A stretch of DNA of 46,945 bases from Gemmatimonadota bacterium (GTDB taxonomy: Bacteria > Gemmatimonadota > Gemmatimonadetes > Longimicrobiales > Gaopeijiaceae), in NCBI GenBank assembly GCA_028873825.1, contig JAPPNM010000118.1:1-46945 (forward strand), given 5' to 3'. Positions 1 to 46,945 of this stretch are shown here, in pieces (position 1 is the first letter of the stretch; each line of letters opens with the position of its first letter). The translations under genes and the position numbers were made by a program. The notes below the pieces were generated by a model. The model was not told the DNA's origin, did no database searches, and was given only the letters and a program-made list of their open reading frames with translations.

Positions 1-2
1 TG

Positions 3-368
3 GAGGAACGGGACCGCGGCTGTCGCTATCCCGGATGCGCGAGCCGCTTCACCGAGGCCCACCATGTGAAGCACTGGGCCGATGGCGGCGAGACCAGTCT
101 GGCCAACACGATCCTGCTCTGCCGCCGGCACCACCGACTGGTCCACGAGGGGGGGACGCGCATGGCGCTGGACCGTGACGGCAAGGCCGCGTTCTTCACG
201 CGGGCAGGCCAGGTGCTCGGGACTGCGCCGCCGTTGCCGGAGGTCGCCCGGCAGCTGCCGGAGCCCCCGCCCCCACCCCCCGACCGCCTCTCCAACGGCG
301 CCCCCCGCTTCGTCGACTCGGCGGTCCCGCTTTCGCTGGAGCTCGAGGCGCTGGAGGCGGTGGCGTGA
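3..368 (+). CDS. HNH endonuclease domain protein (DUF222/13E12-like), 5' truncated by window edge
   Basis: The reading frame is open from the left edge and ends with TGA at 366-368. It reads RDRGCRYPGC, then about 10 residues later EAHHVKHWADGG, then LLCRRHHRLVHEGG. This is the classic HNH layout, with one Cys pair, the AHH motif and the CRRHH-LVHE helix that bind metal and cut DNA. This form of HNH domain usually sits at the C-terminus of DUF222 (13E12 repeat) proteins, whose N-terminal part would lie outside the window. The last 50 residues are a proline-rich tail (a run of six Pro) with no recognisable fold. These proteins are often multi-copy and their cellular role is poorly defined. The HNH call is secure; DUF222 membership is inferred from the motif style. 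Confidence 0.85.
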   Translation, partial: EERDRGCRYPGCASRFTEAHHVKHWADGGETSLANTILLCRRHHRLVHEGGTRMALDRDGKAAFFTRAGQVLGTAPPLPEVARQLPEPPPPPPDRLSNGAPRFVDSAVPLSLELEALEAVA

Positions 369-501
369 TCGGGCGCCCACCCTTCGCCGCGGCAAAACCC
401 GGGACACAGGCATGTCGAAACGGGACAGGCCACCGGCAGGATTCGTGCCGCCCCCCCCGGTCAGGTGCAGCGTCTCGCGCGAGACGGTGCGAAGGTTGCC
501 G

Positions 502-1077
502 TCAAACCGTGGCGGCGCGTCGGCTGGGTCGGCTTCTGCCTTGCCGTTCAGGTTCGGGGCGGTGACCCGCGGCGAATTCCTGGATATCTCCCGGGGTTTC
601 GAGGGCATCTGCGAGAAGGAAGAGATCGCGAGGATGCATGCCCAGACTCCTGGCATGCCAGACCTCGCACTTCAGGCCATCGATGATGGATTCACCGTCC
701 CCGGGGTGGTCACTGCCGTCGCGGTAGAACAAGAGGACGTTTCCCCCGTACATCCACGACGTACTGTAGAGTGGCGGACGCGCCTGCTTGAACCGAAGGA
801 ACTCTTCGCTGAACTCTCCCTCCCTGTCCTGGGTGACGAATTGGCCAATACGGAGGACCACGAGTCCAAGGGAGGACGGAACCAGTCCCCAATCGCCGTG
901 TTGGTTCTTGCCTGTATCTCGCGACCCATGCCCCACTACCGCCCCAAGCCGTTTCAGACGCTCGGCACCTGAGAAGTGCTCGTACACGTCAATGATCTTC
1001 TGGACGCCGACGGGCAGGAAGATCGGATAGGTCGTGGACTTGACGAGGTTCCCCCCCTTCACGTCCTTGGACTTCAC
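502..1077 (-). CDS. Hypothetical protein, second gene of a two-gene operon
   Basis: I do not recognise this protein. The 191-residue frame starts with GTG at 1077, which overlaps the stop of the zinc-ribbon gene upstream (GTGA), so translation is probably coupled. The first 150 residues have ordinary globular composition (for example PIFLPVGVQKIIDVYEHF and SWMYGGNVLLFYRDG) with no signal peptide or membrane segment. The final 20 residues are Arg/Pro-rich and may be read-through of GC-rich sequence. DNA here is less GC-rich than in the neighbours, which suggests recent acquisition. It could still be a spurious frame, but the coupling and composition favour a real gene. Confidence 0.5.
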   Translation of the reverse strand: MKSKDVKGGNLVKSTTYPIFLPVGVQKIIDVYEHFSGAERLKRLGAVVGHGSRDTGKNQHGDWGLVPSSLGLVVLRIGQFVTQDREGEFSEEFLRFKQARPPLYSTSWMYGGNVLLFYRDGSDHPGDGESIIDGLKCEVWHARSLGMHPRDLFLLADALETPGDIQEFAAGHRPEPERQGRSRPSRRAATV

Positions 1078-1373
1078 AGCACGCCTTGCCCGGGGTCCAA
1101 GACACCTGGGTAAGTCAGGAAAGTCGTCCCGTGAATCGTGCCGTGTCGCTGCTCCGCAGGAGGTTGATCAGCCATCCTGGAGGGCCGGGTAACTCTTCTT
1201 TCCGTAGGCGTGATCTGAACGTTGGTGCTGACCACGCGGCCACATTTCGTACACCGGACGGGCACTCTGACTTCAAGAGGTGATCCCACCTGTGGCAACG
1301 CGTGAAGTACGCCGCGGGGCGGATCTTTCACGAGTTCCTGATCGTCACCGCACTTGGGACATCTGCCGTGCAT
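1074..1373 (-). CDS. Small zinc-ribbon protein
   Basis: A protein of about 99 residues with two Cys pairs, CPKCG near residue 5 and CTKCG near residue 41. This spacing is typical of a zinc ribbon that binds one Zn ion. I chose ATG at 1373, which has an AGGTG Shine-Dalgarno-like element six bases upstream; an in-frame GTG at 1382 is the alternative. Its stop overlaps the start of the next gene by four bases, so the two form an operon. No catalytic motif is seen. A role in nucleic-acid or protein binding would be a guess. Confidence 0.5.
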   Translation of the reverse strand: MHGRCPKCGDDQELVKDPPRGVLHALPQVGSPLEVRVPVRCTKCGRVVSTNVQITPTERRVTRPSRMADQPPAEQRHGTIHGTTFLTYPGVLDPGQGVL

Positions 1374-1518
1374 GGTGGTCACCTATCCGTGCCCGGCGGC
1401 GGTGTACGGTCCCGCCGCATGGGTTCTTTCTGAAGCCTCGGCTGGGTGCGGTCGAGTGTGGAGCCCTGGTTGAACTTACGTGATTTCCTGCCGTGATTCG
1501 TGCCACCTGCAACCCCTG

Positions 1519-1575
1519 CCAGCCCGGCGCCTCGCCGCTCTCGGTGCTCAAGCGGCGTTGTCCGCGGACTGCTAG
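1519..1575 (-). repeat. Dispersed repeat copy R1 (57 bp)
   Basis: This 57-bp block matches the block at 22441-22497 at 51 of 57 positions. It shares its core (CAGTCCG.GGA...GCACCGAGAGCGGCGAGGCG in the minus orientation) with copies near 13000, 18130 and 44114. It lies in the gap 1374-1600, between the zinc-ribbon gene and the end of arsM, where I see no gene. It sits just downstream of the arsM stop on the same strand, so it could act as a transcript-end hairpin, but no U-tract follows. Confidence 0.75.
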
Positions 1576-1600
1576 CCCGCGGGCCGCCAGGAGGCGTCTC

Positions 1601-2449
1601 TCACCCCCCCTCCTTAACGGCCTCGATCACCCCCCCGTGAATCGACTCCACGAAGTCCCGCACCTCCCCCTCCCGCCACGGCTCGCGCTGCACGACCTCC
1701 CGCACTCGCGGGTCGGCCAATATGTGCTCCGACGGGTACCGGCGCCCCGTTTCCACGCTCACCTCCACGAACCCCGCGGCCGCCAGATCCGCCTCGTACT
1801 CCGCCACCTGCACCGGCAGGCACCCCACCAGCGACTCCTTCGAGGCCGCGACGAAGTCCGGCACGGCACTCTCCGACACCAGGTCCGAGATCGTCACCCG
1901 CCCCCCCGGCCTCAGCACCCGCATCGCCTCGGCGAGCACGCGCGGGCGGTCGGCCGAGAGGTTCAGCACGCAGTTGGAGATCACGACGTCCGCGACGCCG
2001 TCGCCCACCGGCAGCGCCTCGATCTCGCCGAGCCGGAACTCGACGTTGCCGTAGCCGCCCTCCCTCGCGTTGGCGCGCGCCCTCTCCACCATCTCCGGCG
2101 TCATGTCCACCCCGATCACCCGTCCCTCCGGCCCCACCCGCTTCGCCGCAAGGAAGCAGTCGATGCCGGCCCCCGAGCCCAGGTCCAGCACGGTCTCGCC
2201 CGGTGCCAGCGAGGCGAGCGCCACGGGGTTCCCGCACCCGAGTCCCAGGTTCGCCCCCTCGGGAACGCGGCTCAGGTCGCTCTCGTCGTAGCCCACCGCG
2301 CAGCCGATCTCGTCGGCGGCCGTAGTGTAGCCGCGATCAGCAACCGGAGTCCCGCAGTCCGAAGGCCCGCAGCACCCCTCCTCCGACGCGGCGGCTCTAG
2401 CGTAGCGCTCGCGCACCGCGGCTCGCCTCTCGGCGGCATCGATCGTCAC
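1601..2449 (-). CDS. arsM: Arsenite S-adenosylmethyltransferase
   Basis: A 282-residue class I methyltransferase that would methylate As(III) using S-adenosylmethionine in the cytoplasm. The SAM-binding motif VLDLGSGAGID is at residues 87-97, followed by GVDMTPEM. The three cysteines that bind arsenite in the ArsM family are present: C72 in GLGCGNP, C160 in ISNCVLNLS and C210 in LVGCLPV. An N-terminal cluster (EGCCG at 25-28) adds further thiols, as in bacterial ArsM. The start is GTG at 2449, overlapping the stop of the transporter gene by four bases (GTGA), so the two are translationally coupled. No ArsR regulator gene is visible nearby. Confidence 0.93.
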   Translation of the reverse strand: MTIDAAERRAAVRERYARAAASEEGCCGPSDCGTPVADRGYTTAADEIGCAVGYDESDLSRVPEGANLGLGCGNPVALASLAPGETVLDLGSGAGIDCFLAAKRVGPEGRVIGVDMTPEMVERARANAREGGYGNVEFRLGEIEALPVGDGVADVVISNCVLNLSADRPRVLAEAMRVLRPGGRVTISDLVSESAVPDFVAASKESLVGCLPVQVAEYEADLAAAGFVEVSVETGRRYPSEHILADPRVREVVQREPWREGEVRDFVESIHGGVIEAVKEGG

Positions 2450-3690
2450 GCCGCACCCCCTTGCGCCACCGGCGCCTTCGGGTCCTCCACCCGCCGCAGC
2501 AGCAGAAGCCCGATCAGGAAGAGTCCGGTGAGCACCAGGAAGCCCGGTCTCTGGTTCCCCCCCGCCAGGTAGGTGACCCCTCCGAAGAGCACCGGCCCCA
2601 GCACCGACGAAGACCGCCCGCACAGCGCGTAGAACCCGAACAGCTCGGCCTCCCGCCCGTCCGGAATCAGCGACGCCATGAACGCCCGGCTCGCCGACTG
2701 AACCGACCCCAGTCCGAACCCGGCCGCGACCGCCAACCCGTAGAAGACGTTCGCGCTCTCCACGAAGTACGCGGCCACCCCTGCCGCCACCCACAGGCAG
2801 AGCACCCCGGTCAGCACCTTCTTGGGCCCCAGCGTGTCGGCCGGCTTCGCCAACGCATACGCTCCGGCGAGCGCCGAGAACTGCACGATGAGGAAGAGGA
2901 CGATCACCTGCTCCGGGTCGAAGCCGAAGGTGCCCTGCGCGATGACGGCCGCCATCACGATGATCGTCAGGACCCCGTCGATGTAGAAGAAGAAGGCGAA
3001 GAGGAAACGCCGCAGGTTGGTGTTGCCCCAGACCTCGGCCGCGATGCGCTTGAAGTCGGCGAAGCCCTTCGCGGCGGCCTGCCCGATGCCCATCCCGCCC
3101 TTCCGGTCCCGCGGCAGGAAGAGGAACGCCGGGATCGAGAAGATCGCGAAGTAGGCGATGACCGCGAGCCAGACCAGTTCGATGCGTCCCAACTGGTTCA
3201 GGATCAGCAGCGCGAGCACCAGGCCGAGCGCCGATCCCAGGTACCCCAGGCCGTAGCCGTAGCCCGAGGTGCGGCCCAGCCGCTCGGGCGGGACGATGTC
3301 GGGCAGATACGCGTTGTAGAAGACGTTCGCGCTCTCGAACCCCACGTTGGCGACGACGAAGAAGAGGAAGCCCGCGACGATCATCCCCGGCTGGAGCGTC
3401 GTCATGAGCGCCACGCCGACCAGGCAGGTGGCCACGTAGAAGCCCAGAAACCGCTTGCGGGCGCCGCTGCGATCCGCGATCGCGCCCAGCAGGGGGGACG
3501 TCACGGCGACGATGATCGCCGACGCGGTCACCGCCCAGCCCCACCAGAGGTCCCCCAGCCCCCCTTGCCCCCCGACGATATTGCCGCGGTAGAAGACGGG
3601 AAAGACCGCCGTCGTGACGACCGCCGGGTAGATGGAATTGGCGAAGTCGTACAGCACCCAAGCCCGTGCGGTGCGCTTGTCGTAGCTCAC
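2446..3690 (-). CDS. UMF1/Atg22-type MFS transporter
   Basis: A 414-residue inner-membrane protein of about 12 helices. The N-terminal AWVLYDFANSIY and the loop LGAIADRSGARKRFLGFY are hallmarks of the UMF1 (Atg22-like, 'vacuole effluxer') branch of the major facilitator superfamily. A second such loop, ADTLGPKKVLTG, marks the C-terminal half. It starts with GTG at 3690, with a GAGGAAA ribosome site about nine bases upstream. The stop overlaps the start of arsM, so transporter and methyltransferase form one operon. Export of methylated arsenicals is a reasonable inference from that linkage, but no family member known to me establishes the substrate. Confidence 0.85.
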   Translation of the reverse strand: MSYDKRTARAWVLYDFANSIYPAVVTTAVFPVFYRGNIVGGQGGLGDLWWGWAVTASAIIVAVTSPLLGAIADRSGARKRFLGFYVATCLVGVALMTTLQPGMIVAGFLFFVVANVGFESANVFYNAYLPDIVPPERLGRTSGYGYGLGYLGSALGLVLALLILNQLGRIELVWLAVIAYFAIFSIPAFLFLPRDRKGGMGIGQAAAKGFADFKRIAAEVWGNTNLRRFLFAFFFYIDGVLTIIVMAAVIAQGTFGFDPEQVIVLFLIVQFSALAGAYALAKPADTLGPKKVLTGVLCLWVAAGVAAYFVESANVFYGLAVAAGFGLGSVQSASRAFMASLIPDGREAELFGFYALCGRSSSVLGPVLFGGVTYLAGGNQRPGFLVLTGLFLIGLLLLRRVEDPKAPVAQGGAA

Positions 3691-3749
3691 CTGACCGTTT
3701 CCTCAGTCGATGCCCGAGGGCATGTGGATCGTGCGCGGGGCGGCTTGCG

Positions 3750-4025
3750 CTACTTGCCCCGCGCCTGCCTGATGCCGAAGCCCACCCCCGTCCCCACGCC
3801 GAGCCCGACCAGCAGCGCCGCGCCCGTCCCCACGAAGGGCAGTATCGCCACCACCGGAGCGGCGGCGATCGCCGTCGCCGCGCCCGCCGCCAGTCCCATT
3901 CCGCTTGCCGACTTTTCCGCCACCTTCGTGTAGCGCAGCTTGCGGCGGACGAACTCCTTGGTCTTGACATGCCCGAACAGGCCCGCAGCCCCCGCCGCTC
4001 CCAGTCCTATCGTCTCCAGTATCAT
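3750..4025 (-). CDS. Small glycine/alanine-rich membrane protein
   Basis: A 91-residue protein preceded by a good ribosome site (GGAAAGGA). After a basic segment (KTKEFVRRKLRY, near residue 22) comes a long hydrophobic Gly/Ala stretch, about residues 40-85, that could form two helices in a hairpin, ending in a basic tail. The Gly-spaced pattern (LLVGLGVGTGVGFG) resembles glycine-zipper segments. No family is recognised. It lies between the transporter and the DUF1232-like gene on the same strand, possibly in one transcript. Confidence 0.6.
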   Translation of the reverse strand: MILETIGLGAAGAAGLFGHVKTKEFVRRKLRYTKVAEKSASGMGLAAGAATAIAAAPVVAILPFVGTGAALLVGLGVGTGVGFGIRQARGK

Positions 4026-4040
4026 CTCGGTGTCCTTTCC

Positions 4041-4061
4041 CGGGGCGAACCCCGCTTTTTT
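4041..4061 (+). terminator. Terminator-like hairpin in the plus orientation
   Basis: The plus strand has a CGGGG stem, CGAA loop and CCCCG stem (4041-4054), then CTTTTTT. That is the form of a rho-independent terminator for plus-strand transcription, yet all genes around it are on the minus strand. Read on the minus strand the A-tract comes before the hairpin and cannot terminate. It may stop antisense transcription, or be a chance hairpin overlapping the ribosome-site region of the 91-residue protein gene. Confidence 0.35.
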
Positions 4062-4104
4062 CGGGACCTACGGCAAGCCGGCGCGCAACGTTTCCGGGCC
4101 GCCC

Positions 4105-4617
4105 TCACGAGTTGTGTCCCATCTCGGCCCACGCCTGGTTCACCTGGGTCGACACGTCCTGCAGCGCGAAGAGCGACGCCTCGTCCAGCTTGTCGCCGAT
4201 CTCCGGACCCACGAGCCGCCGCAGAAAGCGCAGGGGCTCGGTGAAGTCCACGTCCATGAGCGGCGGGGATCCGTAGTTGAAGTTCTCGAGGATCCGAAAC
4301 GCCAGGTAGGTGTCGTCGAGGAGTCCGGCCATCCCCTGGGTCATTTCGGGGATCAGGTCGACCGGATTGACGAAGTAGCGCGCAGCGTGATCCAGGACGG
4401 GCATGACCACCACGCGCAGCCCCCGCTGCTCGGCCGCCTGGGCCGCGCACGCCAGCACGACCGGCACCATCTCGACCACCTCGACGGCCACCGCCGCGGC
4501 CTCCGCGATCTCCGCCTCCTTCGACGACGGCGACATGCGCCGGATGAATTCCTCCAGCTTGCCGTTGTCGCGCACCTTGGCGCTGTCGATGACGGCCTGA
4601 ATGTCTTCGAGGTTCAT
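4105..4617 (-). CDS. DUF1232/YkvA-like protein
   Basis: A 170-residue protein. Near residues 80-110 it contains AARYFVNPVDLIPEMTQGM followed by GLLDDTYLAFRIL, which fits the YkvA/DUF1232 signature (NPxDLIPD...GxxDD). The mid-region (about 40-70) is Ala/Val-rich and includes one hydrophobic segment. The function of the family is not established; members are usually small membrane-associated proteins. Its ATG overlaps the stop of the upstream VCBS-repeat gene (ATGA), so it is the second gene of that operon. Confidence 0.65.
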   Translation of the reverse strand: MNLEDIQAVIDSAKVRDNGKLEEFIRRMSPSSKEAEIAEAAAVAVEVVEMVPVVLACAAQAAEQRGLRVVVMPVLDHAARYFVNPVDLIPEMTQGMAGLLDDTYLAFRILENFNYGSPPLMDVDFTEPLRFLRRLVGPEIGDKLDEASLFALQDVSTQVNQAWAEMGHNS

Positions 4618-6452
4618 GGTGCGGCGCCTGCCTTCCCGAGGTAGATGACGATTCCGCCTCCGTTCCCGCCCGCGATCAGGTCAAGGTGGCCGTCCGCGTC
4701 GATGTCCGCAAACGCCGGCGCGGTGAAGGCGGGCACCTCGTGCGCGAAGGGGCCGGTCTCGACGAAGACCGGCTCCTTCGGCGTTCCCTCGTTCGTGAAC
4801 AGCCGCAAACCCGAGATTTCCGAACCCACGGCGAGATCGAGGTCCCCGTCCCCGTCGAGATCCACAAGGGCGGGGACGCTGCGGCGCCCCACGTCGATGT
4901 CCTGGAACTCGTCCGAGACGAGCTGGAAGTCGGGACCGCGCGGACCGCCGTCGTTCCGGTAGTAGTTGAGCGCGCCGGACGACTCGCCGACGATCAGGTC
5001 GAGGTCGCCGTCCGCGTCCAGATCGCCCAGCGCGGGAGTCGTGTTGCGCCCCCGGGTCAGGGTGACGGCGGCGGAATCGGCCATCCTCCAGCGCGGCAGA
5101 AGCCGGTCGCGCGAGAACCAGCCCCGCCCGTCGTTGCGGTACCAGGCCACGCGGTCGCGCCACTCGCCGAGCAGCATGTCGTCGTCTCCGTCTCCGTCGA
5201 GGTCGCCAAAAGCGGGCGCGAAGTGGTAGGCGTCGGGGAGCCCCGGGAACCTGCCGCGCGCGCGGAAGGCGGGGGCGGCCGGGGACCCGGTGTTCTCGTA
5301 GACGTAGAGGGCCCCGGTCCGGTTGTCCCCGGGCTCGATCTTGTTGGAGACGAGGAGGTCGAGGTCGCCGTCGCCGTCCAGGTCGGTCAGGGCGGGGATC
5401 GATTCGCTGCCCGCGTCGACCGTGCGGATCAGGCGGGCGGTGACCTGGGCGAAGTCTCCGTCGCCGTCCTGCTCGAACAGGTGGAGGTTCTCGACCGCGG
5501 TGCGGGCCGGGAGGAACGCGCCGCCGAGCACGCCCATGACGAGGTCCAGGTCGCCGTCCAGGTCCGTGTCTCCGAGGGCGGGGGCGTTGTAGCCCGACGT
5601 GGCGACCGGGTCGCCCAGGGGGAAGGGCCGGGGGGTGCCGCGCAGGACCGGGCGGCGGCAGCTCCCCGTGTTCTCGATGAAGAGAAGGCCGGCTTCGAAG
5701 AAGTCGCCCCAGAAGAGGTCGCGGTCGCCGTCCCGGTCGACGTCTCCCAGCGCCATCGTGTTCGCCCCGTGGCGGATCCCCTGGAAGGCCGCGACGATCT
5801 CGATGTCCTCGAAGGAATCCGTGACGTGGCGGAAGACGGGCACTCCGTTGTCGTCGGTCTTCTCGGCCTCGTAACGGGTGATCGTCCCGGTGAGGCGGCC
5901 GATGAGCAGGTCCAGGTTGCCGTCGCAGTCGATGTCGGCCGCGTTGGGTATGTTCTGGCGGTCCGAGAAGATGGGTTCGCCGTCGGTGTCCCGGAGGGTG
6001 TCGGCGGCGAGGACGTAGGCCGCCGGACCCGGGCCGCCGTCGTTGCGGTAGTAGCGGATGTAGCTGTAGGGCTCCTCGGCCAGAAGGTCGAGGTCGCCGT
6101 CCAGGTCCACGTCGGCGAACCGGTACCACTCGCCGACCGGGAGGTCCTCGTAGGCGTCGGTGACCCAGCGGTACTCGCTCGCGCCTCCGGCGGCCTCGTT
6201 GCGGAAGAACATGATCCGGTCCGAATGCTCCTGGAGGAACAGGTCGAGGTCGCCGTCCCCGTCGGCGTCCGCGAGCTGGGGGCGGGGCAGGTTGAAGCCG
6301 CCCAGAAAGGGATGGTCGAGGGGATCGCCGGCTTCGTCGAGCACCTCGATGCCGTAGACGATGCGTTCCCATTGCTGGGCCGGGGGGGGGGACTGGGCGG
6401 CGCCGGGCGCCGGCAGCGCGAAGAGGGCGAAGGCCAGGAATGTAAACCACAC
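4614..6452 (-). CDS. Secreted FG-GAP/VCBS repeat protein
   Basis: About 612 residues. A hydrophobic leader (FTFLAFALFALPAPGAAQ) gives a signal peptide with cleavage after AQ. The rest holds about ten calcium-binding loops of the form D.D.DGDLDLL, spaced 45-65 residues apart; this is the VCBS/FG-GAP pattern that folds into a seven-bladed, integrin-like propeller. Such proteins are extracellular or periplasmic and often bind ligands or surfaces; no enzymatic motif is seen. I chose GTG at 6452 because an AT-rich palindrome lies just upstream. The frame also runs to a start at 6548, which would add a basic, cysteine-containing extension. The ribosome site is poor for either choice. Confidence 0.8.
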   Translation of the reverse strand: MWFTFLAFALFALPAPGAAQSPPPAQQWERIVYGIEVLDEAGDPLDHPFLGGFNLPRPQLADADGDGDLDLFLQEHSDRIMFFRNEAAGGASEYRWVTDAYEDLPVGEWYRFADVDLDGDLDLLAEEPYSYIRYYRNDGGPGPAAYVLAADTLRDTDGEPIFSDRQNIPNAADIDCDGNLDLLIGRLTGTITRYEAEKTDDNGVPVFRHVTDSFEDIEIVAAFQGIRHGANTMALGDVDRDGDRDLFWGDFFEAGLLFIENTGSCRRPVLRGTPRPFPLGDPVATSGYNAPALGDTDLDGDLDLVMGVLGGAFLPARTAVENLHLFEQDGDGDFAQVTARLIRTVDAGSESIPALTDLDGDGDLDLLVSNKIEPGDNRTGALYVYENTGSPAAPAFRARGRFPGLPDAYHFAPAFGDLDGDGDDDMLLGEWRDRVAWYRNDGRGWFSRDRLLPRWRMADSAAVTLTRGRNTTPALGDLDADGDLDLIVGESSGALNYYRNDGGPRGPDFQLVSDEFQDIDVGRRSVPALVDLDGDGDLDLAVGSEISGLRLFTNEGTPKEPVFVETGPFAHEVPAFTAPAFADIDADGHLDLIAGGNGGGIVIYLGKAGAAP

Positions 6453-6481
6453 ATGACATGATGTAATGTTGTCATTACATC
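6441..6481 (-). promoter_or_regulatory. AT-rich palindromic box at the start of the VCBS-repeat gene
   Basis: GATGTAATG and CATTACATC form a perfect 9-bp inverted repeat around TTGT (6460-6481), directly upstream of the chosen GTG. The adjacent 6441-6473 matches 21396-21428 at 28 of 33 positions. It shares ACATGACAT and GTTTACATTC with the direct repeats at the DegP start (36774-36862). The low local GC and the symmetry suggest a regulator-binding site or promoter; no regulator is identified. Confidence 0.5.
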
Positions 6482-6569
6482 GCGAGCAGGCGACCGAAGC
6501 GATCCGGCGCGAAACGGGGCCCGTGGCCCCGAATCTCCGCGCGTTCACGGAACCGCCCGCCTCACGGAG

Positions 6570-7664
6570 CTACCCCGCCGGGCCGATCGAGATGCCCGCC
6601 GGATAGGCGCCGACTTCGATCGTCTTCACGACCTCGTAGGTCTGCGTGTCGATCTTCACCACGGTGCCCACGTCGGCGTTGTTCTCCACCTCCCGGCTCG
6701 GCTCGTAGGCGCCCTTCAGATTGCGGTTCGACACGAACAGATAGCGCCCGTCGGCCGTAATCGCGCTGCCGTGCGGCTCGACGATTCCGGGGGCCGTGAT
6801 GCGCCGCGCGACCGTCCAGCCGGCCGTCTCCACCACCACCACCGCGTCGTCGTCCTTGGCGCCGAAGTACACCCGGCCGCCGTCCGGCGAGAAGACCGGA
6901 TGCCAGGGCTGGGCGCCCGCGTCCACCTCGGCCACGGGCCCGCCGTCCGTGTCGGCGGCGTCGAAGACGAGGAGCTTTCCGGTGAGCTGCGCGGTCGCGA
7001 CCAGGCGGCGGCGGTCGGGGGACAGCGCGAACTGCACGAAGGTGTGCGGCGGGCCCGCGACGTCGACGAGGTCGATTTCGCCCGAGCGCTGGCCGAGGAC
7101 GGCGAAGCGGTTTTCGACCAGCGAAGCCGTGAAGACGCGTTCCGTATCATGGTCGACGACGAGGGCGTGGGGGCGCGGGAAGAAGACGTCCAGCTCCTCG
7201 ACGCTCATGTCGCCGGGGTCGATCGCGCCGATGCGCTGCGGCGGGTTCACCGCCATCATCGAGCGTCCCACGTAGAGCGTCCCGGAGGCGGGGTCCACGG
7301 CCAGCAGGCCCGGAGTCTCGAAGGGCGCGCGTCCGACGAGCTCGTTGTCCGCGTTGAAGCGCAGGACGTGGCCGCCGCCGATCAGCGACACGTACCAGTG
7401 GGATCCGTCCGGGTCCACCGCCGTGTGGTGTGGGCGCGAGTTGACGTCGAACCCGAACCGGGTCATGTCGACGGTCGCCAACACCTCGCCGGACCCGGCG
7501 TCGATCACCGACACGCTCGCAGAAGCCTGGTTCGCCACGTAGACGCGCTCGTCCGCCCGGGGTTCCGGCGCCGGCGCGTCCGGCCTCTCGGTCCGGCACC
7601 CGGCCCAAGCGGCCGCTCCGCAGAGCAGGAGGAGCCCCCAGCAGTCAGTCCTTCTTCCGTTCAT
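6570..7664 (-). CDS. YVTN/YncE-like beta-propeller lipoprotein
   Basis: About 364 residues. A lipoprotein signal ends at the lipobox AWAGC near residue 23, so the protein is probably anchored to a membrane facing the periplasm or outside. Repeated strands such as RVYVANQASASVSVIDAGSG, GTLYVGRSMM and GRYLFVSNRN are the YVTN-type blades of a seven-bladed propeller. I chose ATG at 7664 because GGGAGA lies six bases upstream; the in-frame GTG at 7670 would bury that site. The role is unknown. It lies between two other secreted propeller genes on the same strand, 35 bp after the stop of the 7699-10056 gene. Confidence 0.8.
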   Translation of the reverse strand: MNGRRTDCWGLLLLCGAAAWAGCRTERPDAPAPEPRADERVYVANQASASVSVIDAGSGEVLATVDMTRFGFDVNSRPHHTAVDPDGSHWYVSLIGGGHVLRFNADNELVGRAPFETPGLLAVDPASGTLYVGRSMMAVNPPQRIGAIDPGDMSVEELDVFFPRPHALVVDHDTERVFTASLVENRFAVLGQRSGEIDLVDVAGPPHTFVQFALSPDRRRLVATAQLTGKLLVFDAADTDGGPVAEVDAGAQPWHPVFSPDGGRVYFGAKDDDAVVVVETAGWTVARRITAPGIVEPHGSAITADGRYLFVSNRNLKGAYEPSREVENNADVGTVVKIDTQTYEVVKTIEVGAYPAGISIGPAG

Positions 7665-12654: not shown

Positions 12655-12999
12655 GGTTCTGCTCCCAAGAAAAGGGCGGATAGTGATTCCGGCGGACCGT
12701 TTCCGCCGGTCCGCGTGCTTCGCGCACGCGCCTCCTCGCCGACCGGGCGACATCGTCACGAACCCACGTTCGACGCACCGGTTTCGTGACCAGCCGGTTC
12801 GCTGTCGAGGGGCGGCATTCCTCGGGGCGGTCCGCGGTGCGGTGGGGTCGGGTCGCGGCATCGGAACCTCATGGGAGTGACGGGTCGCTTCGATCGGGCG
12901 AGACCATCATGGGCTCTTGGCGCGGGCGCATACATGGCGATTCGGGACTGATTTCCGGACGCGGCTTTGCGGGACGGAGTCCGTGCCGGACCGGTAGGC

Positions 13000-13030
13000 T
13001 AGCGGTCCGTGGATAAAGCCGCCCGGGCTG
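13000..13030 (+). repeat. Dispersed repeat copy R2 (partial)
   Basis: The stretch GGTCCGTGGATAAAGCCGCC matches the left half of the repeat found at 18129 and 44114, and is bounded on both sides by CTAG. The right half (GCACCGAGAGCGGCG) is missing. It lies in the 12655-13068 gap, which holds no convincing gene, between the permease stop and the six-cysteine gene. Confidence 0.6.
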
Positions 13031-15920: not shown

Positions 15921-16547
15921 CTACAGCCCCTTCAGCACCTCCAGGATGTCCTCGTTGGTCGGCCGCACCTTGTAGTCCACCTCCACGAAGCGGTACCGCA
16001 CCACCCCCTCCATGTCGATCACGTAGGTGGCGGGGTGCGGGAACGGCCGCTTGCTCGACGAGTCCTCGTTGAAGAGTCCGTAGCGGTCGATCACGGCGTG
16101 GTCCGGATCCGAGAGCATCACGAAGTCCGGCGGAACCGTGTCCTTCTTGGAGACCTTCCCGATCATCTTCTCCATCCCCTCGCGCTCGTCCACCGAGACG
16201 GTGACGATCTCCGTCTTGTCCTCGATCTCGTCGGGAAGCAGGGCTCTCAGCTCGCCGAGCTGACGGGCGCAGTACGGTCACCAGTGGCCCCGGTAGAAGA
16301 CCAGTACGACATTCTTCCGGCCCCGGTAGCCCGCCAGCTCCACCGCCTCCCCCGCGAACGAGGCCAGGGTGAAGTTCGGGGCCTCGCCGCCCACGGCCAC
16401 TCGTTCCAGGTCGGCGCGGGGCAGGTCGCGGCCGTCGGCGGGGCCCAGGGTCTGCGCGTTCAGGGCGGAGCCGGGCGCCCGCGCTCCGGCGAGGACGAGA
16501 AGCGCGGGCAGGCAGGCTGCGGCGAGCGGTCCGATCAAGGGTCTCAT
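15921..16547 (-). CDS. Peroxiredoxin-like (AhpC/TSA) selenoprotein candidate; in-frame TGA as Sec90
   Basis: A 208-residue thioredoxin-fold protein with a signal peptide (PLIGPLAAACLPALLVLAGARA). Residues about 50-88 give GEAPNFTLASFAGEAVELAG, then NVVLVFYRGHW. The next codon is TGA (16278-16280), then PYC, and the same frame continues with ARQLGELRALLPDEI to a TAG at 15921. Cys-containing relatives read FYRGHWCPYC at this point, so the TGA replaces exactly the peroxidatic Cys and would make a UPYC (Sec90-Cys93) redox centre. The downstream half keeps the fold (FVMLSDPDHAVIDRYGL, HPATYVIDMEGVVRYRF). A stem-loop 16247-16263 suits a bacterial SECIS. The alternative, a nonsense-mutated pseudogene, is less likely because the rest of the frame is intact. 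Predicted role: periplasmic peroxide or thiol-disulfide chemistry. No sel genes are in the window. Confidence 0.82.
16247..16263 (-). promoter_or_regulatory. SECIS-like hairpin downstream of the in-frame TGA
   Basis: On the coding strand UCAGCUC and GAGCUGA form a perfect 7-bp stem around a GGC loop. The loop begins 21 bases after the UGA, and its first two bases are G. A loop 16-37 bases from the UGA with a G among its first two bases is the general rule for bacterial SECIS elements, which recruit SelB. The hairpin lies within the coding sequence, as it must in bacteria. The triloop is at the short end of the allowed range. Confidence 0.6.
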
Positions 16548-17925: not shown

Positions 17926-18144
17926 ATGACCACCACTCCGAACGCGGACGGCGGAAGCGGACCCCGCGAGGACCGCCGGGCGGCAGGCCGACCCCCGCGC
18001 CAACTCGGACCGTCCCCCGGCAGTGACGGAGATCGTCCCCTTCGGGCGACTTTCCGAACGGCCACAAGGCGGCTCCACCGGTCCGCGGAAGAGCCCGCAC
18101 GAGCGCCGACAGAGGCGAGGGTTGGCCTGGCAGTCCGTGGATAA
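17926..18144 (+). CDS. Possible small protein ending in a repeat
   Basis: A 72-residue frame with a strong ribosome site (GGGGGAGGTGAGACC before ATG). The composition is Arg/Pro/Gly-rich with no known motif, so it may not be a gene. Its last codons, AVRG and the TAA, are supplied by the dispersed repeat at 18129. The 17847-18241 gap holds nothing else apart from this frame and the repeat. Confidence 0.25.
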   Translation: MTTTPNADGGSGPREDRRAAGRPPRQLGPSPGSDGDRPLRATFRTATRRLHRSAEEPARAPTEARVGLAVRG

Positions 18145-18172
18145 AGCCGCCCGAGCACCGAGAGCGGCGGGC
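18129..18172 (+). repeat. Dispersed repeat copy R3
   Basis: A 44-bp core (GCAGTCCGTGGATAAAGCCG then CCCGAGCACCGAGAGCGGCG) nearly identical to the copy at 44114 and, in inverted orientation, to those at 1519 and 22441. It lies about 70 bp upstream of the outer-membrane barrel gene. GCCGC and GCGGC within it can pair into a hairpin. Confidence 0.75.
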
Positions 18173-18241
18173 CGCCGGGGCATGGCACGGCTCTTGCTGA
18201 AGACGACCGCCGAACCCCAAAGCTTGCGAGGAGAGCTACAC

Positions 18242-22364: not shown

Positions 22365-22440
22365 TTTTGCCGCTCCAAGGCTGCGCTCTGCGTTGCTCCT
22401 CGGGCGAATAGCGCTGCCATTCCCCCTTCGTCGCGCCTTG

Positions 22441-22497
22441 CCAGCCCGGCGCCTCGCCGCTCTCGGTGCTCGGGCGGCTCTATCCACGGACTGCTAG
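22441..22497 (-). repeat. Dispersed repeat copy R4 (57 bp)
   Basis: Matches the copy at 1519-1575 at 51 of 57 positions and ends in CTAG like it. It lies in the gap between the cyclase and ahcY genes, about 45 bp before the ahcY start codon. The preceding 22375-22440 is GC-rich with no gene. I looked for an S-adenosylhomocysteine riboswitch here and saw none. Confidence 0.75.
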
Positions 22498-36029: not shown

Positions 36030-36784
36030 ATGAGCGAGCCGCAAACCCGCTTCAAACTCGCCCTCCACTACGACGGGGCCGCCTTCCACGGCTGGCAGGT
36101 CCAGCCCGGACAGCCCACCGTCCAGGGTGCGATCGAGGAGGCCCTGTCGCGGCTGACCGGCGAACGCCGCACCGTCCTGGGCGCCGGCCGCACCGACGCC
36201 GGCGTGCATGCCACCGGCCAGGTTGCGGCGGTCACCGTCCCCGCCCGCTGGACGGCGCGGGAGCTGGCTCGTTCGCTGAACGCGCTGCTCCCCGGCACGG
36301 TCTGGGTGCGGCGCGCCGAGGCGGTCCCCGAGGGCTTCCACCCGCGCCTCCACGCGGTCGCGCGCAGCTACGAGTACCGGATCGGCGTGGCTCCGCTCTC
36401 CGCCTCCCCGTTTCACCGCCGCTGGTGCTGGCCCCTGTGCCGCCCCCTCGACCCGGAGGTCGCCGCCCGCGCCGCCGCGCTCCTCCCCGGCACGCACGAG
36501 TTTCGCGCCTTCGCCAAGTCCGGCCAGCCGAAAAGGGGGTACCGCTGCCGGGTCTCGCACGCCCGCTGGCGCCCCTGGAACGACCTGGGCGCCGCCTTCG
36601 AGATCACCGCCGACCGCTTCCTGCACCGGATGGTGCGATATTTGGTGGGAACCATGGTGGACATCGCGCTGAATCGCCGGGAAGAGGAGGACATGGCCCT
36701 GCTGCTGAAGGGAGACGCCGCGGCGACCACCTCTCCGCCCGCACCGGCGGCGGGGCTCTTCCTGACCCGCGTGGCGTATCGAAC

Positions 36785-36788
<4 letters not shown>
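36030..36788 (+). CDS. truA: tRNA pseudouridine synthase A
   Basis: A 252-residue enzyme forming pseudouridine at tRNA positions 38-40. The catalytic Asp lies in GAGRTDAGVHATGQV. FKLALHYDGAAFHGWQ at the start and RMVRYLVGTMVDIA near the end are family features. The stop TGA overlaps the ATG of the protease gene (36785-36788). The last codons (VAYRT) belong to the first copy of a 38-bp direct repeat. Confidence 0.96.
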
Positions 36789-38383
<1,595 letters not shown>

Positions 38384-43476: not shown

Positions 43477-44129
43477 CCATCCCCGTCGCCCGCGAGGGCC
43501 TTCCCTTCATCCTGTTCTGCCTCGCCGCGACCGGGCTGGCCGCCCTGTGGGCCCTGGGCGGAGGCTGGGGCATGCGCTCGGCCGCCCCCGCCCTTCTTCT
43601 GGCGCTCACCCTGCTCGTCGCGTACTTCTTCCGCGACCCCGAGCGCCGGAGCCCCCCGGACCCGCGCCTGGTCGTCGCTCCCGCCGACGGCAAGGTGATG
43701 AGCGTGGGTCCGGTCGAGGACGAGGACTTCATGGGCGAGACCGCCACGCGCGTGACCATCTTTCTGAACATCTTCGACGTGCACGTGCAGCGAGCGCCGC
43801 TGGGGGGCCGCGTGGACCGCTACGCGTACCGGCCGGGCACCTTCGCGGCCGCGTGGCGGGAGGAGGCCGGGCGCGAGAACGAACGCGCCTCGCTCGGCAT
43901 CGCTACCGGCGCCGGGCCGCTTCTGGTGCGCCAGATCGCCGGTCTGGCGGCCCGCCGCATCGCCACCTACCCGCGCGAGGGCGACACGGTGGCCAGGGGC
44001 GACCGCATCGGTCTCATCCGATTCGGCTCACGCGTGGAACTGCTTCTGCCCGCGCGGTGGCCGGTGTCCGTCGAGCGCGGAGACCGGGTGCGCGGCGGCG
44101 AGACCCCGGTGGCAGCAGTCCGTGGATAA
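43473..44129 (+). CDS. psd: Phosphatidylserine decarboxylase, short type
   Basis: A 218-residue membrane-bound precursor. Two N-terminal helices (about 8-50) are followed by VVAPADGKVMSVG, FLNIFDVHVQRAPLGG and the processing site RFGSRVELLLP, where cleavage between Gly and Ser makes the pyruvoyl group. It produces phosphatidylethanolamine. GTG at 43473 overlaps the purC stop (GTGA). Its last four codons and TAA (AVRG) come from a dispersed repeat. Confidence 0.93.
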   Translation: MTIPVAREGLPFILFCLAATGLAALWALGGGWGMRSAAPALLLALTLLVAYFFRDPERRSPPDPRLVVAPADGKVMSVGPVEDEDFMGETATRVTIFLNIFDVHVQRAPLGGRVDRYAYRPGTFAAAWREEAGRENERASLGIATGAGPLLVRQIAGLAARRIATYPREGDTVARGDRIGLIRFGSRVELLLPARWPVSVERGDRVRGGETPVAAVRG

Positions 44130-44159
44130 GGCCGCCCGAGCACCGAGAGCGGCGAGGCG
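44114..44159 (+). repeat. Dispersed repeat copy R5 at the psd-pssA junction
   Basis: AGCAGTCCGTGGATAAGGCC then GCCCGAGCACCGAGAGCGGC: the same core as the copies at 18129, 1519 and 22441. It supplies the psd stop and also an in-frame GTG (44122) upstream of pssA that would add the Arg-rich [15 protein letters not shown]. Confidence 0.8.
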
Positions 44160-44181
44160 TCGGCGCGCCTCCCGCGGACGC

Positions 44182-46027: not shown

Positions 46028-46945
<918 letters not shown>

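Follow-up and report, generated by a model that had tools for sequence, protein, structure and literature searches.

The locus at positions 15921-16547 (minus strand) raises the question of whether a TGA that interrupts a redoxin-type reading frame is translated and, if it is, as which residue and in what kind of enzyme. It lies in a stretch of 46,945 nucleotides, hereafter the window, which is contig 30 of a 3.3-Mb Gemmatimonadota draft genome (183 contigs, 93% complete). The read-through frame, whose strand the original prediction had left unstated, begins with an ATG at 16545-16547 and terminates with a TAG at 15921-15923, and with the TGA read as a residue it encodes 208 amino acids with one recoded codon only, U90 (16278-16280), in the sequence context VVLVFYRGHW-U-PYCARQLGELR. 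The Pfam family AhpC-TSA (PF00578) matched the read-through product over residues 52-185 (E 1e-28; 100.2 bits against a cut-off of 26), and the Redoxin family matched as well. Since this one match spans residues on both sides of the TGA, both halves belong to one domain, in agreement with the original prediction of a single AhpC/TSA frame broken only by the TGA. The expectation that ordinary annotation would split the gene was also borne out, an ORF listing under translation table 11 giving an 89-aa ORF (16278-16547) and a 90-aa ORF with a GTG start (15921-16193). Judged by eye, the N-terminus resembles a signal peptide, probably covering residues 1 to about 31 (16455-16547), with a hydrophobic run followed by ALNA-Q.

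Other open frames cover the same DNA. The plus strand is stop-free over 15921-16547, and a 284-aa minus-strand ORF in another frame also covers the locus. Additional open frames are common in G+C-rich DNA, and one other minus-strand frame 3′ of the UGA, stop-free in the window, is interrupted in three relatives (by 1, 2 and 2 stops, respectively).

Conservation of the TGA codon

Ninety-eight genomes were searched, the window's own included. All 44 matches above 170 bits (own locus included), which fell in 42 of the 98 genomes among the matches listed, contained exactly one TGA and zero other stops. A fragment in one genome (G005; residues 109-207) stopped short of codon 90, and the remaining listed matches scored below 60 bits. 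Among the matches listed, the gene was present in 23 of 23 genus genomes, 16 of 35 other family genomes, 0 of 33 other order genomes and 3 of 7 other class genomes; it is genus-wide, and patchy beyond the genus. The TGA occupied the identical codon in all 30 loci that were read codon by codon (30 of the 44, own included), and the U and C of UPYC were kept in every one of them. Purifying selection persists 3′ of the TGA: compared with four relatives (L019, L021, L023 and L020), dN/dS was 0.197, 0.292, 0.268 and 0.224 downstream of the TGA and 0.257, 0.387, 0.449 and 0.463 upstream of it. The single TGA per match, its constant codon and a dN/dS of 0.20-0.29 after it indicate that the AhpC/TSA frame is not a product of chance.

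Of 243 homologues in named genomes the best 80 were kept, and codon 90 was TGA in 51 of these 80 and a Cys codon (TGC or TGT) in 29. One of the two search patterns demanded Cys at the site, so that a third residue such as Ser is under-sampled among these best 80, and a Cys form from Gemmatimonadota would be visible only if it kept one of the two patterns and ranked among the best 80. The original prediction had expected homologues to carry Cys or TGA alone at this codon; this was the case at all 80 loci kept, and scattered stops were absent from the relatives examined. That the gene is a pseudogene, a Cys-type redoxin struck by a nonsense mutation, is highly improbable: the apparent lack of selD in the draft would in principle allow for a loss of recoding in this one strain, but the reading was rejected on the lone TGA without further stops in 44/44 strong matches listed, on TGA or Cys being kept at 80/80 loci and on the dN/dS after the TGA, and the conserved hairpin and the selA, selB and tRNA-Sec of the draft, all described below, also speak against it.

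By title, the 51 TGA loci comprised 44 from Gemmatimonadota or its orders, 4 from Gammaproteobacteria and one each from the BD2-11 clade, Bacterium HR33 and Bryobacteraceae. The four titled Gammaproteobacteria clustered tightly with Gemmatimonadetes rows on the tree, and these titles may therefore be wrong. The Bryobacteraceae copy (L102, 4001-4492) was the sole Acidobacteriota-titled TGA copy among the best 80 and sat on a long branch. Acidobacteriota contributed 6 of the 29 Cys forms among the same best 80 of 243, gammaproteobacterial groups 16 and others 7. Two changes between Sec and Cys were needed on the tree, one change sufficed in 56% of 200 bootstrap trees, and long branches meet; a single origin would be compatible with this tree.

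A hairpin downstream of the UGA

The hairpin UCAGCUC-GGC-GAGCUGA is encoded at 16247-16263 (minus strand), with 7 bp, a 3-nt loop (GGC) and 21 nt from the UGA to the apical loop. The 17-nt hairpin alone had a minimum free energy of -8.6 kcal/mol (z -2.83 compared to shuffles). Stretches of 45-61 nt had no such advantage over shuffles (z 0.00 and 1.34), and the stability of a longer RNA stretch was dropped as support. In the available portion of PMC13188914, bSECIS elements are assigned limits that take in this hairpin on each count, with its 3-nt loop starting with GG, its 7 bp, its 21-nt spacing and its folding energy.

All seven pairs were kept in 49 of the 52 Sec loci and six pairs in the other three, with a loop starting with GG or GU in 52/52. 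None of the 29 Cys homologues had 7/7 pairs and one locus reached six; the QL-x-EL protein sequence itself favours partial pairing, some Cys homologues having up to 6/7 pairs. Across 47 distinct rows, standard pairs filled 99.1% of the cells. Covariation was thin: two pairs had both partners changed (three cells in total), and the other five of the seven never varied. Of 500 shuffles, none was as high in pairing, double changes or covariation score and 40 reached the number of pair types, and sliding the partners by 1-3 columns lowered pairing to 29-47%, the +3 slide equalling the true covariation score of 0.034. At the Bryobacteraceae locus, both sides of two pairs were changed and the same stem still folds.

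The hairpin constrains codon choice. The stem codons CAG, CTC, GAG and CTG were each the single codon used in 30/30 loci. Counting by eye, invariant degenerate residues near the site (n = 14, 30 loci) used one codon in 4/4 cases within the stem compared to 0/10 outside it, and the Arg at the 3′ edge of the stem was encoded by AGA in 33/34 cases, whereas AGA occurred 5 times among 685 Arg codons sampled from other parts of these genes.

Selenium machinery and the decoding of the UGA

The draft genome contains selB (310.6 bits, cut-off 242; a 652-aa frame), selA (482 bits, cut-off 268) and a tRNA-Sec (78.2 bits), which ARAGORN called as tRNA-SeC with the anticodon tca. A profile search of this 93% complete draft returned no selD over the cut-off. 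The original prediction had staked itself on selenocysteine genes being found in this genome, naming a genome without them as evidence to the contrary; selA, selB and tRNA-Sec were present, but selD was not found. Weaker selD matches were set aside. A 313-aa frame (L008; 46.5 bits against a cut-off of 125) looks like another protein of the superfamily, presumably ThiL-like, and L009 reached only 22.6 bits. A 28-bit match at 46312-46761 of the window lies in a frame that we take to be PurL-like, following one that is presumably PurQ-like.

Within the genus, 22 of 23 genomes had a selD that passed the cut-off, the sole exception being the window's own draft. A channel-like gene adjoins selD in one of these genomes (G003), and in the window's own draft it lies on contig 53 with no selD alongside (bases 1-7000 examined). 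The simplest reading of the missing selD is a gap in the draft, with loss as the alternative. In all 22 genus genomes with selD, the gene contained one in-frame TGA, and in the one that was read (G003:C89:20853-21779) the TGA lies at HGAGUACKL. From these sequences, selD itself seems to be a selenoprotein gene in the genus.

The gene and tRNA-Sec tended to occur together. With the line for a true tRNA-Sec drawn at 55 bits, a value chosen after the scores were known, a match of at least 55 bits was found in 39 of the 42 genomes with the gene compared to 25 of the 56 without it (among the matches listed; Fisher p 4e-7). Outside the genus, the figures were 17/19 and 25/56, respectively (p 0.001); the genomes are related by descent, which makes these p values a guide only. 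Three gene-bearing genomes had no 55-bit match (G018, G032 and G057), and these misses may be explained by assembly breaks, because tRNA-Sec begins at base 1 of its contig in four genus drafts (G002:C79, G003:C47, G004:C84 and G007:C88). A strong tRNA-Sec was also present in four of four further Sec-form genomes (L075, L089, L101 and L102) and in five of ten further Cys-form genomes, including all five Acidobacteriota tested, and the Cys form therefore does not imply the absence of the Sec system.

The UGA could also be decoded as another residue, either through Cys placed on tRNA-Sec or through a general reassignment of UGA. Cys may be placed on tRNA-Sec when selenophosphate is short, and both the selD not found in the draft and the Cys at this site in 29 homologues (of the best 80 of 243) would suit such decoding, but selD is present in 22/23 genus genomes, each time with an in-frame TGA of its own. 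A general reassignment would need no conserved hairpin after the UGA, and UGA terminates the homologous gene in four of the 30 loci read (L035, L043, L045 and L046); the window's own gene terminates with TAG. Decoding as a residue other than selenocysteine is barely credible. On these comparisons UGA 90 is almost certainly decoded as selenocysteine. The conserved parts suggest that SelB and Sec-tRNA(Sec) would bind the hairpin at 16247-16263 during translation and insert selenocysteine at UGA 90.

These results indicate that, in this Gemmatimonadota genus, the UGA in the gene for a presumably exported redox enzyme is translated as selenocysteine, and plain ORF calling splits that gene. A family model with a built-in Sec codon would correct the reading of the gene in the 42 gene-bearing genomes (among the matches listed) and in others. 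The rigid hairpin, kept over deep divergence, also provides a natural data set on what SelB reads in bSECIS elements.

Predicted function and known relatives

Residues 90 and 93 were the sole invariant Cys/Sec positions in both the 17-row and the 31-row alignment, and Cys93 (16269-16271, minus strand) is the predicted partner of Sec90. The best solved-structure match was to an Rv2238c-type peroxiredoxin (PDB 4xih, 1xvw; E 6e-20), which we take to be the protein called AhpE/PrxE. In profile alignments to two Rv2238c-type chains, the Thr of TxxC is matched by U90 and its Cys by Cys93. The classical peroxiredoxin signature is PxxxTxxC, and in the window's protein Sec90 occupies the Thr position and Arg86 the Pro position. 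Thiol:disulfide proteins of the ResA, DsbE and TlpA types matched as well. Sixteen NCBIfam families matched at E up to 0.001, with none over its cut-off (thiol peroxidase, PrxU, the SelL-related family and WAxxUGC included).

Because U90 aligns with the Thr and Cys93 with the Cys of TxxC, the protein is probably a UxxC thiol:disulfide oxidoreductase rather than a dedicated peroxidase. A true selenium-dependent peroxidase, that is a peroxiredoxin, is a less likely reading that deserves weight: the Pfam family is AhpC-TSA, the best PDB matches are peroxiredoxins and a thiol peroxidase heads the NCBIfam matches (51.4 bits, far below its cut-off of 140), but PxxxTxxC is not kept, the two PDB alignments leave Cys93 and not Sec90 at the Cys, and the ResA, DsbE and TlpA matches point away from a peroxidase. 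The original prediction had placed the TGA on the catalytic Cys; the codon opens a CxxC-type motif, and its residue aligns with the peroxiredoxin Thr and not with the peroxidatic Cys. Of the proposed exported peroxiredoxin-like selenoprotein, the selenoprotein is supported, but 'peroxiredoxin-like thiol oxidoreductase' describes it better than 'peroxidase'.

The gene, 208 codons followed by TAG, very probably encodes a selenoprotein, an exported UxxC redox enzyme with selenocysteine inserted at UGA 90 by way of the hairpin. Its N-terminus suggests that the protein would be exported, and the profile matches suggest that it would fold as an AhpC/TSA, thioredoxin-like domain. In CxxC motifs the first residue is usually the attacker. 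Sec90 and Cys93 would be joined in a reversible selenenylsulfide, Sec90 making the attack, and the enzyme would most likely act in the cell envelope, reducing disulfides or peroxides with a thiol reductant.

When 30 loci were compared at the DNA level, the gene on the downstream side varied among relatives, and no operon partner was seen. Ten neighbouring ORFs were scanned, and two had Pfam matches, one to an ABC-type ATPase and the other to an M28 peptidase. A promoter and terminator scan returned nothing, and Rfam and ARAGORN gave no matches across the window. Among plasmid records, 115 had a match, all below 60% identity, and the 20 listed were at 27%-35%.

Several repeats were observed elsewhere in the window. 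A repeat of about 50 nt occurs in both orientations, at 1514-1575 (minus), 12999-13028 (a 30-nt part), 18127-18181, 22436-22497 (minus) and 44112-44166, and the translations of L001, L008 and L148 contain similar strings, so that the repeat seems to be spread through the genome. Two near-identical 49-nt copies, 51 nt apart, lie at 36766-36865, each with a palindrome-like GTAAACCGCAGTTTAC, and could be a candidate regulator binding site. The region 4671-6276, within a 644-aa minus-strand ORF (4614-6548), contains degenerate DNA repeats with a spacing of mostly 156-192 nt; by eye they are Asp/Gly-rich on the minus strand and presumably FG-GAP-like.

Four distant redoxin-like matches in the genus also had one in-frame TGA each (G015:C165:2467-2985, G022:C61:48774-49028, G008:C259:7295-7570 and G006:C51:9036-9344) and are possible further candidate selenoproteins.

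The available text of PMC1794560 (2006), and again that of PMC5029168 (2016), mentions Prx-like (thiol:disulfide oxidoreductase) selenoproteins by name, and PF00578 with UxxC or UxxU appears in the corresponding portions of PMC9312934 (2022) and PMC13188914 (2026). The term 'Gemmatimonad' does not occur in the main texts of PMC13188914, PMC5029168 and PMC9312934, and listings and abstract openings in the open-licence literature on selenoproteins or selenocysteine in Gemmatimonadota included no paper on this gene. The gene is a member of a Prx-like selenoprotein kind that has been in print since 2006 and lies outside the curated NCBIfam models scanned. A more tentative proposal, which we hold to be somewhat doubtful, is that it may represent a distinct exported Prx-like subfamily of single origin, with Sec in every Gemmatimonadota copy seen and an unusually fixed bSECIS, CAGCUC-G(G/U)N-GAGCUG. 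If true, the fixed primary sequence of the bSECIS would suggest that SelB recognizes an element specific to this lineage.

The Rv2238c-type peroxiredoxin, the best structure match, differs from the window's protein in its TxxC, which has Thr at the Sec position. PrxU (NF040737) is likewise of PF00578 type and matched weakly, its 38.7 bits being far below the 270-bit cut-off. The available portion of PMC13188914 gives TxxU as the motif of the selenocysteine Prx in PF00578; TxxU proteins carry Sec at the last motif position, whereas the window's protein carries it at the first. Two families from the GOS marine metagenome sequences, 'Prx-like 1' (pfam00578, UxxC) and 'Prx-like 3' (pfam08534, UxxC), are given in the available text of PMC2398784 (2008) and, compared by description only, are of the same domain and motif class as the window's gene and differ in their marine metagenomic source. 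The published Prx-like UxxC selenoproteins as a whole, again compared by their partial descriptions only, share with the window's group the Pfam family, the UxxC motif type and the Sec/Cys pairing logic of the prediction, whereas the window's group is presumably exported, centred on Gemmatimonadota and marked by FYRGHWUPYC.
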